Virus record (IMG/VR): IMGVR_UViG_3300009537_000123 | Span: 1 to 29,199 of that record | DNA: 29,199 nucleotides | From: a virus | Direction: 5' to 3' (one strand) | Shown: piece after piece, positions 17,643 to 25,828 of the stretch | Layout: each line of letters starts with the position of its first letter | How positions within the stretch are numbered: the first letter of the stretch is position 1 | The notes under the pieces: generated by a model | Told to the model about the DNA's origin: nothing | Database searches by the model: none | Seen by the model: only the letters and a program-made list of their open reading frames with translations | Made by a program: the position numbers and the translations under genes

Positions 17643-19199
17643 TTAAGCCGGATCTATGATATTTAAATCCATCATGTTATTTTTTAATTTTGCCGGATCA
17701 TTTAAGTTATAAATATCATACCCTTTGATTTCATCATCCAATAATTTCGCCACAATTAATTCACTTTTTTGTCCTGAATTTTCAATAATGCGCCTTATAG
17801 GTTCCTCAAGCGCATTTTCTATAATTTGCTTAGCCATATTTTGTCCGGCAGAACTTAAGCTTTTCTGACTCAAAGCTCTTTTAAGTTTCAAAAGAAAAAC
17901 GCCGCCGCCTTCTACAATGCCTTCTTCTTGGGCGGCTCTACTTGCTTTAATCGCATCGTCAATTCGATCCATCTTTTCTTTGATCTCAGATTCATTAGCT
18001 CCGCCCACCTTGATAACAGCCAACTTAGACTCTAGCTGTGCAATCGCTTCTGTTAAAATTTTCGTATCGTAATCATCACCTGCACGGTCAAGTTCAATTT
18101 TTAATTCCTTTAATCTTTCGGAGTAATCGGCCTTAGTTTGCTGAATAATACTTTTAGGCGGCGTTGAAATAATTTTGTCGGCAAGACCCAGCATTTCAGG
18201 CTTAAGGTTACGAATATCAAGACCCATTTCTTCCGAAATTAGTTTCGCATTTGTAATGGCCGCCGCATTTTTAAGAAAATGTTTTTGCTCGCTATCCCCT
18301 AAATTTCCTTTAGCAGGTATCCATACGATATAGGGAATATTTTTTTCTTTTTTGGCTTTGTATTCTTCACATCCTTTCGCAATTCCTTTAAGCGCTTCTT
18401 CAGATATTTCAGGAGAAATAACGACTAACGTTAAACGTTTATTCCGCTCAACCAATCCTTTATTAATCACCGCTTCTATTTCATGGCCAAACTTAAAGCA
18501 ATGATCGGTTACTAGAACTTTACAGTTCTCAGACCCAAAGAACCCATCTTTATTCATAAATGAACCGGAAACTATACCTCTATCCCATTGAAACCCTTGT
18601 GAAAATTCTAATGTTGTTTCACTTGTTTTACTTTTTTCTTGTCCGACAAGACCCCATTCACCTACTTTATGAACGGCAGAGCCAATCATTTGACCAAGCT
18701 CCTTATCCCCATTACAAGCAATCGCCGCTATCTTTATCAAAGACTGTTCAGTGTCACATTCGATTGATTGGTCGATTATTTGCTCGTTAATCATCACCTC
18801 ACACTTTTTGAATCCCTTTACAAGTTCTGATCGAGAAATGCTCTTATTTAAAGAATTAAGGCCCTCTTTGAATAATTCATAGGCTAAAATAGTTGTGAGT
18901 GTCGTGCCGTCACCTGATTCGTGAACCTGAGCTGTGGCCGCTTGTCTAATTAAATCGGCACCTATCTTTTCAAACTTATCTTCTAGGATTATTTGTTGGG
19001 CCACGGTTACACCGTCTTTAGTCGCCATCGGCCAAACGGTCCATACATGATCTCCAAAAATAGCAACTTTTCCTTCAGGGCCCATGGTAGACCCGACTGC
19101 ATCCGAAACCTTTTTAGCTCCTGATAATAATTTTGTATGCGCCTTAAAACCAAACTTTAAATCTTTCGGCAAAAACTCTCCCTGCTTAATATTTTGCAT
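17643..19199 (-). CDS. groEL: Phage-encoded GroEL (Hsp60) chaperonin, ends early by in-frame TAA
   Basis: GroEL forms ATP-driven double rings that fold enclosed proteins; phage versions are thought to fold capsid or tail proteins. The ORF gives 518 residues, and about 550 would result with the stop read through. ATP-site motifs are TMGPEGKVAIF (38-48), TKDGVTVA (60-67) and GDGTTLTTILA (96-106), with Asp97 equivalent to E. coli Asp87. Asp415 in RIDDAIKASRAA corresponds to the catalytic Asp398, followed by EEGIVEGGG. The apical domain is complete in length (LTLVVISPEISEEALKGI, then ISEEMGLDIRNL). The sequence is very divergent from bacterial GroEL, with odd Trp residues in the loop 51-56, so it is not a recent host capture. 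No Gly-Met tail is present. The ribosome site is AGAGGGAGACACATT. It lies between fibre-related genes and the endolysin; a GroES-like gene is 5.2 kb upstream. Confidence 0.92.
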   Translation of the reverse strand: MQNIKQGEFLPKDLKFGFKAHTKLLSGAKKVSDAVGSTMGPEGKVAIFGDHVWTVWPMATKDGVTVAQQIILEDKFEKIGADLIRQAATAQVHESGDGTTLTTILAYELFKEGLNSLNKSISRSELVKGFKKCEVMINEQIIDQSIECDTEQSLIKIAAIACNGDKELGQMIGSAVHKVGEWGLVGQEKSKTSETTLEFSQGFQWDRGIVSGSFMNKDGFFGSENCKVLVTDHCFKFGHEIEAVINKGLVERNKRLTLVVISPEISEEALKGIAKGCEEYKAKKEKNIPYIVWIPAKGNLGDSEQKHFLKNAAAITNAKLISEEMGLDIRNLKPEMLGLADKIISTPPKSIIQQTKADYSERLKELKIELDRAGDDYDTKILTEAIAQLESKLAVIKVGGANESEIKEKMDRIDDAIKASRAAQEEGIVEGGGVFLLKLKRALSQKSLSSAGQNMAKQIIENALEEPIRRIIENSGQKSELIVAKLLDDEIKGYDIYNLNDPAKLKNNMMDLNIIDPA

Positions 19200-24437: not shown

Positions 24438-24686
24438 TTATTTATTTAAATTAGCCAAAATGGAGGATTGGGAGACTAGAGTCGTGCCATCTTCCAGATC
24501 ATGGCCGGTTCCTGGCTTAAAATACACTTTGTCTCCCACAGATATTTTAAGCGTTACTTCAACTCCTAATTCCAAAACCTCAGCCTTATAACTCGACTGA
24601 ACTCGATAAGGGTTGTCGTTAAATGTTTGGGCTATTTCGTCTACTTCTTCAATTTTCTTAAGTAAAATATTTTGTCCGTAGATCAC
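24438..24686 (-). CDS. GroES-like co-chaperonin (82 aa)
   Basis: GroES forms a heptameric lid on GroEL. The C-terminal half matches the family pattern: GVEV, then VGDKVYFKPGTGHDLEDG (50-67) and LVSQSSILANL (70-80), equivalent to VGD-V-F, G-E and ESDILA of GroES. The N-terminal strand GQNILLKKIEEV (4-15) corresponds to the D-R-V-V-K-E strand. The mobile loop that docks on GroEL, normally GGI-V/L, is not recognisable: residues 16-32 read DEIAQTFNDNPYRVQSS. At 82 residues it is slightly short for a GroES. The start is a GTG with AGAGG seven bases upstream; no in-frame ATG alternative is supported. It heads the operon that also contains groEL 5.2 kb further on. T4 gp31 is a known precedent for a phage GroES substitute. 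Confidence 0.65.
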   Translation of the reverse strand: MIYGQNILLKKIEEVDEIAQTFNDNPYRVQSSYKAEVLELGVEVTLKISVGDKVYFKPGTGHDLEDGTTLVSQSSILANLNK

Positions 24687-24717
24687 GTCATAGCCTCTAA
24701 TTAAAAGCTACCATAGG

Positions 24718-24759
24718 TGTCAAGTTTTTCTTGACAGTTCGATTTTGGGGATTTTTTAT
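24718..24759. promoter_or_regulatory. Inverted repeat of two opposed -35-like TTGACA boxes
   Basis: TGTCAAG and CTTGACA (24718..24724 and 24730..24736) form a perfect 7-base inverted repeat around TTTTT, so TTGACA is readable on both strands. On plus, a 17-base spacer leads to TTTTAT (24754..24759). On minus, the box points at the GroES-like gene about 32 bases away, but its -10 is poor. It is a promoter/operator candidate for the late operon. Confidence 0.35.
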
Positions 24760-24765
24760 TTGAAT

Positions 24766-24901
24766 GGCGGCTAACGGCTTTGAATCTTACCTACGCACCG
24801 TGAGGTATCCGTTCCTTTGTTTGGTCATTAGCCAGTAACTAGTATCAGCTAAATACACCCGTGCGTGTCATTGGCCCTATTAGCTAGCATAGGAAACCGC
24901 C
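24766..24901. repeat. Cluster of nested inverted repeats, possible structured RNA
   Basis: Hairpin one: GGCTAA (24769-24774) with TTAGCC (24828-24833), alternatively AACGG (24773-24777) with CCGTT (24809-24813), and inside TACCT (24788-24792) with AGGTA (24803-24807). Hairpin two: AGCTAA (24847-24852) with TTAGCT (24880-24885) and inside ACAC (24855-24858) with GTGT (24865-24868). GGCGG (24766-24770) can pair with CCGCC (24897-24901) to enclose both. The pairings are seen directly; whether they form in RNA is unknown. Confidence 0.45.
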
Positions 24902-24907
24902 TTATGA

Positions 24908-24940
24908 ATTATATCAGTTATTCGAAAAATCCGAATAACT
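24908..24940. promoter_or_regulatory. Nine-base perfect hairpin beside a TATAAT box
   Basis: AGTTATTCG (24916-24924) and CGAATAACT (24932-24940) are exact inverted repeats with a 7-base loop. On the minus strand TATAAT (24913..24908) follows two bases later, without a good -35 box. There is no T-tract, so it is not an intrinsic terminator. It may be an operator or an RNA hairpin downstream of the periodic array. Confidence 0.35.
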
Positions 24941-24958
24941 CAACTTGTCGGAAATATC

Positions 24959-25089
24959 ACTGCATTACCTTAACTTAACAACACATAACCAGAACATCAC
25001 AAAGCGTAACACCACTAAACGACACCTTAGCTTTACCTTTACTCAACCTTAACTGAGCGTGGCATAACAAAACCTAAACGATGCATAGC
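24959..25089 (-). repeat. Periodic array: 25 units of G-Y-N-N-N(G), 5-6-nt period
   Basis: On the minus strand this stretch divides without remainder into 25 consecutive units that begin G-pyrimidine: GCTAT, GCATC, GTTTAG, GTTTT, GTTAT and so on to GCAGT. Nineteen units are 5 bases long and six are 6 bases, the extra base always a G before the next GT. On the plus strand each unit ends AC (18 units) or GC (7). The three inner bases vary. The period drifts through all reading frames and stops interrupt it, so it is not coding. It lies directly downstream of the RAMP-like gene on the same strand. It is not a CRISPR: the units are too short and there are no spacers. Confidence 0.8.
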
Positions 25090-25138
25090 GTCATTTTTAA
25101 CAATACGAGGCTTACTTCCTTACGGTAGCTCAAGAAAC

Positions 25139-25828
25139 TTAAAGTTCGTCTAACTTTCCAATCTCAAGTATTTCATACTCAAACTTGCCGTAACCACCCG
25201 ATCTAAATTGCAATAAACCCTCATACTTGCCAAACTTAAGCAGAATTTCAATTTCTTCTGGACCTATTACCGATGGAATTGGAGATTCAATTTTAAACTC
25301 AATTACTGCCCCAGCCTTAATTTGATCTGATTTAGCCAACGCCGTCCGAGGCCCTTGCATTGTTTCGCATCTTAACGGCCTTTCAAGCGGTAATTCCGTA
25401 TATTCACCCTTAATAAATATCTTTCGGGGCAATATATGAACATAATTATGGACCTTGCTTTTTAACTGCTTTATCTTGATATTACGGTTGTTCATTATCC
25501 TTGCCTTATCTTTCAGGTATCCCTTAATAACATAGTCGAGAATGAAAGGTTTTCCATCTTCCTCCATAAAACCCGTCCAAGACTTCTTCTCAAGGTCTGT
25601 TAAAGTATCACCCGGAGAAGCGGTTTCATCGTTTAAATCAGACTCTTTAAGCTTTGTATCCATCTTCAATGCCTTTGCATGGATAAAATCCTTAAGCACC
25701 GTCTCATTTTTGGGAATTGTACCTAAAAGTTCGCTTATCGTGGTTAAACGAACTTTCATGAAAAAGGGTTCATGAAAACCCCCCGTACTTTTCTTTATTT
25801 TTTTGAGAACTAACCTTTGCTTTGTCAT
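25139..25828 (-). CDS. RAMP-superfamily (Cas7/Csm3-like) phage protein (229 aa)
   Basis: Three segments match the logic of RAMP proteins, the RNA-binding backbone subunits of type I/III CRISPR complexes. The first is an N-terminal strand with a loop, VRLTTISELLG (26-36). The second is KPFILDYVIKGYLKDKAR (93-110), which recalls the RAMP signature P-x-x-P-G-S-S-L-K-G-x-L-R. The third is a glycine-rich C-terminal loop and strand, GLLQFRSGGYGKFEYE (204-219), similar to the GSRGYGKV end of Csm3. RPLRCETMQGPRTALAKSDQ (150-169) is typical of related orphan phage proteins of unknown function. No cas gene or CRISPR is nearby. The ribosome site AAGGAGCAATTAA is strong. The gene lies alone between a terminator and a 450-bp non-coding island. 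RNA or single-stranded DNA binding is inferred. Confidence 0.6.
   Translation of the reverse strand: MTKQRLVLKKIKKSTGGFHEPFFMKVRLTTISELLGTIPKNETVLKDFIHAKALKMDTKLKESDLNDETASPGDTLTDLEKKSWTGFMEEDGKPFILDYVIKGYLKDKARIMNNRNIKIKQLKSKVHNYVHILPRKIFIKGEYTELPLERPLRCETMQGPRTALAKSDQIKAGAVIEFKIESPIPSVIGPEEIEILLKFGKYEGLLQFRSGGYGKFEYEILEIGKLDEL

Follow-up and report, generated by a model that had tools for sequence, protein, structure and literature searches.

Does a run of evenly spaced dinucleotides in the noncoding DNA of a phage serve a function, and if so, which? The locus that raises this question lies in the window, a virus record of 29,199 bases that was analysed at its full length. On its minus strand the order is small and large terminase genes, a gene for a 229-aa protein, the periodic array and a GroES-like gene, with GroEL and endolysin genes further down (Table 1); the other neighbour of the locus is a 46-aa ORF of no recognised function. 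The GroEL and GroES-like genes are not adjacent. Our analysis indicates that the rhythm is real and biologically meaningful, and that VIPR, a kind of system described only recently, explains it. The array is most likely a guide RNA of tiny units, used by a Cas7-related phage protein to find other DNA, and the system in the window is probably a divergent VIPR variant whose code has changed.

Table 1. Positions of the features of the window discussed in the text (plus-strand numbering).
Feature	Position	Strand	Remarks
Window	29,199-base virus record	main genes on minus
Phage-encoded GroEL chaperonin	17643-19199	minus	PHROG match, E 3e-93
GroES-like 82-aa protein	24438-24686	minus	weak PHROG match, E 8.5e-4; ~270 nt past the array
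Noncoding gap	24690..25138	minus	from the RAMP gene to the GroES-like gene; holds the array; no recognised gene
Perfect 9-bp hairpin	24916..24940	minus	inverted repeat just 3' of the array; conservation not shown
Proposed vrRNA-like guide tract	24954..25089	minus	26 units of G-Y-N-N-N, six with a final G; the 26th is GATAT
Periodic array	G's at plus 25089 down to 24963; 25th unit ends at 24959	minus	GY chain
229-aa predicted RAMP/Cas7-fold protein (Vipr-like)	25139..25828	minus	49 nt upstream of the array, same strand

An earlier note on this DNA, which assigned the array no function, had described 25 units with a 5- to 6-nt rhythm on the minus strand, beyond anything expected by chance, and both parts of that description were borne out. 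Minus-strand GC and GT dinucleotides form a gap-free chain of 25 at steps of 5 or 6 nt; the next in length in the 29-kb window has 7 members. Dinucleotide-preserving shuffles of the 127-nt stretch (n = 20,000) gave chains of at most 15, and shuffles of the 449-nt intergenic region (n = 5,000) chains of at most 11. When all classes of up to two dinucleotides were scanned at steps from 4/5 to 11/12, G-Y at 5/6 came out highest in the array by a wide margin (25), followed by its 10/11 harmonic (13) and then by a chain of 10. The note had also seen six longer units with one added base in the same place; there are exactly six (GTTTAG, GTTAAG, GTAAAG, GCTAAG, GTTCTG and GTTAAG), and the added base is a final G in each. 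G-Y is present in 25 of 25 units, and none has G as its fifth base. A profile trained solely on other loci adds the unit GATAT, which brings the array to 26 units with a mean of 5.23 nt.

The array is not coding, not a microsatellite and not a CRISPR, as the note had held: the gap that contains it has no recognised gene, Tandem Repeats Finder detected no tandem repeat there, identical repeats are lacking and the recognised neighbours are phage genes. A class 1 CRISPR-Cas array was ruled out on the same grounds. TRAP, the trp RNA-binding attenuation protein, recognises a short fixed motif at 5- to 6-nt steps in single-stranded RNA; a TRAP site (~11 NAG with spacers of 2-3 nt) was rejected, as the motif here is GC/GT in 25 copies and other classes chain no more than 10 times at the 5/6 step. 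Rfam searches at curated and permissive thresholds yielded no relevant match, and a search for tRNA and tmRNA found none. Folding of the array RNA was no better than that of shuffles, and folding of the whole gap did not exceed chance (z -0.74). The hairpin behind the array becomes an 11-bp stem in the predicted fold (z -1.6) and is possibly the 3' end or tail of the array RNA.

The gene upstream of the array and on its strand, in which the note had recognised RAMP motifs, encodes a protein without meaningful matches in Pfam, PHROGs or NCBIfam. An AlphaFold2 model built from an alignment of 64 relatives was confident (pLDDT 85.6, pTM 0.81) and upheld that reading. In Foldseek the model matched the backbone proteins Csm3 and type VII Cas7 (E 1.6e-7), and VIA-align placed it on 8yhe_F with Z 14.5 over 170 aa. 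At the level of sequence, the profile of the 69-member family matched type VII Cas7 (E 1e-4), and PADLOC models of Cas7, Cas6 and Cmr6 matched some family members with weak E-values only. On the model and the profile together, the 229-aa protein is predicted to be a RAMP protein of Cas7/Csm3 fold: phage-encoded, stand-alone and small, with an RRM core and a glycine-rich loop.

The note had named a lack of periodicity in homologous phages as what would refute it, and the relatives do carry a like array beside the gene. The first four relatives of the protein (~33% identity), from human faecal phage contigs, all had 5- to 6-nt periodic DNA next to it, and wider searches brought 64 viral and 17 genome loci; no sequence relatives were found in plasmids. 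With a small hidden Markov model whose training set was the relatives' flanks, without the window, we identified a noncoding array on the gene's strand in 83 of the 86 loci that hold the RAMP gene or a relative. The best-scoring array lies directly upstream of the gene in 29 loci and directly downstream in 49. Two of the array-free loci have the gene at a contig end and the third has a shortened gene. Because detection at training loci is partly by construction, the controls matter. Minus-strand decoding, on the strand opposite the gene, gave few and weak matches that mostly overlapped the same arrays; the window was found without having been trained on; and strong arrays were confined to the RAMP locus throughout 1.89 Mb of contigs from such phages. 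The arrays of close relatives differ by loss and gain of blocks, with the rhythm retained.

The loci vary in size and setting. Tracts range from 19 to 324 units with a median of 88; the two longest, of 319 and 324 units (L059 17-1647 and L062 1452-3114), span ~1.65 kb. L078 (1712-7847) and L026 (247-4796) have not one tract but several separate arrays, all on one strand and at most a few kb from the RAMP gene. In two gut phages (L002 4736-8629, L004 5800-10020) the module sits between genes for a Cro/CI-type repressor, accompanied in L004 by a KilAC/Bro-N antirepressor, and a YqaJ recombinase, that is, in an early or immunity region; in the window it follows the terminase. In L001 (MT835477, 8569-9058) an ORF behind the RAMP gene runs into exact tandem repeats of ~27 nt (GGGGCATCGTCAGCGACAGGAGACTAC).

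The trained unit begins with G (94%), continues with C, A or T and very rarely G, then with an A-rich position and two nearly free bases, or G-[C/T/A]-N-N-N in shorthand, plus an optional sixth base, nearly always (98%) G where it occurs. Units are 5 nt (81%), 6 nt (17%) or 4 nt (2%) long. Long arrays all have a mean period of ~5.15 nt, which scatters less from array to array than independent draws would (chi2/df 0.45). The 6-nt units avoid one another and mostly recur every 5-7 units; the spacing of the extra G peaks at 6 units or 31 nt, against a geometric expectation. The consensus around the extra G is roughly GCAAN-G, then GNANN. The array of the window is short and T-rich with irregular extra-G spacing, and it groups with a subgroup that has T or C as the second base.

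VIPR, a class of RNA-guided system described only months ago and proposed to be older than CRISPR, consists of a RAMP protein encoded by a phage and of vrRNAs built from YNNGG (GGY/NN pentanucleotide) repeats, which together bind double-stranded DNA; two variable bases per unit pair with the target and one target base is skipped, a rule written xNN (PMC13142463, a 2026 preprint). The preprint distinguishes seven VIPR types and allows "a related consensus" besides GGY/NN (PMC13142463), and the family described here may already be among the seven. We located the SUSP1 locus (KT454805, 28474-29061, minus strand) by its position and GGYNN tracts; canonical GGYNN tracts lie beside the homologues in SUSP1, LittleE and Trine, in a setting like that in the window. 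Alignment of the window family with the SUSP1-type family by hhalign was full length (E 1.7e-4) with a probability of only 50%, and the G-loops are similar (GIGQWRNSGKGRF in the window family beside GVGDWRPRFGRF in SUSP1-type Vipr). Sequence homology of the window protein to SUSP1 Vipr is weak, and in tblastn searches in both directions SUSP1 Vipr and the window family were absent from each other's matches. By the strict GGY/NN consensus the window array fails, as the base before G-Y is variable. It is nonetheless a noncoding pentanucleotide tract next to the gene, with variable bases around a fixed motif that contains G. No vap gene was recognised among the window neighbours (GroES-like gene, 46-aa ORF, terminase), and a structured 3' tail as in SUSP1 has not been demonstrated.

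In two relatives (L023 625-935 and L026 3781-3933) there is a second array, of GGYNN type, with G at position 5 in 95-100% of units and a mean of 4.94 nt. These GGYNN-like tracts are separate from, and near, the GYNNN array, which suggests that the two grammars can coexist in one phage.

It is because of fold, setting and unit that we take the window system to work like a VIPR. With considerable confidence we regard a VIPR-type RNA-guided phage module as the best explanation of the locus, and that the array is a guide RNA for the RAMP protein we hold to be highly likely. What the analysis shows is the array, the protein fold, their co-occurrence, the unit grammar with its super-period and the statistics of the triplet reading; transcription, binding, DNA targeting and repression in the window system are inferred by analogy from the preprint (PMC13142463). 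The array would be transcribed on the minus strand together with the RAMP gene, and copies of the Cas7-like protein would line the RNA, each gripping one 5-nt unit by its fixed G-Y. The variable bases would then be offered for pairing with a DNA target, as has been demonstrated for SUSP1 VIPR (PMC13142463). Each unit might specify three adjacent target bases, with N3, N4 and N5 all read, and the extra G every ~6 units might mark or relieve a boundary between segments of ~15-21 target nt. The guides are in coding-strand sense and often lie over Shine-Dalgarno or start regions, which would fit a role in repressing genes of competing phages or prophages.

How the variable bases are read can be approached through their statistics, since in guides that copy DNA the bases that neighbour each other in the target should keep natural-DNA preferences even where they are apart in the RNA. 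N5 and the N3 of the next unit (N3') have such neighbour-like statistics (z 4.75, shuffles within arrays). N5-N4' is weaker (z 3.2), and N4-N3', N4-N4', N3-N3' and N5-Y' are not neighbour-like. Across 6-nt units the N5-N3' signal is gone (z -0.2, 1,189 pairs). When N3N4N5 of successive units are joined, Shine-Dalgarno sites and starts appear, such as AAGGAGGGCAAACATGACAAC in L077. Compared with unit shuffles that preserve block position, the joined strings contain AGGAGG 24 times (8.5 expected), AGGAGGT 10 times (1.8 expected) and GGAGG..ATG 14 times (3.9 expected), and AGGAGG, GGAGGT and AAGGAG, from 17, 12 and 24 loci, are among the top seven enriched hexamers of all. No Shine-Dalgarno enrichment was found in N2N3N4, N3N4, N4N5 or raw-sequence readings. 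The sites seldom cross an extra G and often begin just after one. Locking of units to codon phase was not supported.

Because joining N3N4N5 restores natural-DNA statistics and Shine-Dalgarno sites and the other readings do not, we favour a triplet code without the 1-nt skip. That the family reads three bases per unit is a lead and not proof, and we lean only slightly towards it. We give an even chance to the full proposal of an interrupted guide for an uninterrupted target, in which long arrays are partitioned by an extra G about every 31 nt into numerous guide segments, of which many are aimed at translation starts. The joined string of the window has ATGAAAAAAATAAG, with a start-like look, but a test of the triplet reading needs more than its 26 units; whether guide function and triplet reading both hold for the window's own array is about evenly balanced.

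Searches for targets yielded none, either for the window or for any relative. A gapped local search covered ~5 Mb of related phage DNA on both strands and allowed two or three bases per unit to be read, 0-3 bases to be skipped, and the 6-nt units either to shift the register or not. Apart from array ends left unmasked and one self-match in AT-rich sequence, no match exceeded those of the reversed-sequence controls. No target was found in 15 of the host genomes, nor for stripped arrays in 300 genomes of one family, where weak matches exceeded expectation and the inspected ones turned out to be either generic gene starts or unrelated coding sequence. Exact scans of IMG/VR gave no target either. 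A 9-unit N4N5/skip-1 pattern did match one distinct sequence on two IMG/VR contigs; its flanking units mismatch and the skipped base falls at codon position 2, and we attribute the match to chance.

The closest alternative keeps the VIPR mechanism and the published code, with N3N4 read, one target base skipped and N5 representing the relaxed first G of GGY. It has in its favour that three target bases per 5-nt unit is also the ratio in SUSP1, under the published xNN rule (PMC13142463). We nevertheless consider it unlikely, though far from negligible, for N5 has natural-DNA statistics with the next N3, Shine-Dalgarno sites emerge only when N5 is included, and the window's 9-unit N3N4/skip-1 pattern has no match in IMG/VR.

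Other explanations dispense with target pairing. The array could be an architectural RNA that the RAMP protein coats as a filament or ring in the manner of TRAP, in order to sequester, protect or measure something. One fixed motif per protomer would account for the rhythm, and TRAP itself binds short motifs at 5- to 6-nt steps; such an RNA would, however, leave unexplained the Shine-Dalgarno- and start-like content, the correlations of bases across units and the kinship with Vipr, and we think it improbable. A double-stranded DNA element read each half helical turn, such as the operator or the partition site of a protein that wraps the DNA, would agree with a mean period of 5.15 nt (two units = 10.3-10.5 bp) and with the local regularity of the extra bases. 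Yet the array is on the gene's strand in all 83 loci, its phase drifts over long distances instead of being locked and the partner protein has a predicted RNA-binding RAMP fold, which leaves this explanation very little room. Chance or base composition would require nothing more than the G/T-rich strand that is indeed present, but it is refuted by the shuffles and by recurrence in 82 further loci, and its probability is negligible.

The VIPR-type reading, which we prefer, extends to a family whose further loci number at least 85. They come from phages and prophages of the gut, the rumen and other sources; in most of them the arrays far exceed those of published type II in length and follow a different unit grammar. 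Should the triplet reading hold, contiguous DNA would be read by a code unlike the published 1-nt skip, targets would become predictable by ordinary sequence search once two bases in five are dropped, and the function of many unannotated intergenic regions of phages would become directly testable. It would also show in what way freeing one motif base alters a guide code.

Among known systems, class 1 CRISPR effectors (the Cas7/Csm3 backbone of type III and type VII) share with the window family the fold, a backbone protein that repeats along a guide RNA and periodic positions that do not pair. They differ in that the protein sets a 6-nt period on a guide without a periodic motif, and in their association with CRISPR repeats and further cas genes, of which the window locus shows none. 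TRAP sites resemble the array in their short motif at 5- to 6-nt steps, but consist of ~11 copies of NAG bound by a ring protein of unrelated fold, whereas the window family has GY in up to hundreds of copies and a RAMP protein. Closest is type II VIPR of SUSP1, which likewise combines a single small phage RAMP protein with a same-strand noncoding 5-nt tract of fixed G-pyrimidine and variable bases, and implies three target bases per unit. In SUSP1, GGYNN units form separate tracts of 9-16, and the system includes a vap gene and a vrRNA whose 3' tail is structured; the window family, in contrast, has GYNNN (+G) units, 26 in the window with a median of 88 and up to 324 over all loci, an extra G about every 31 nt and, it appears, a code in which none of the three variable bases goes unread.
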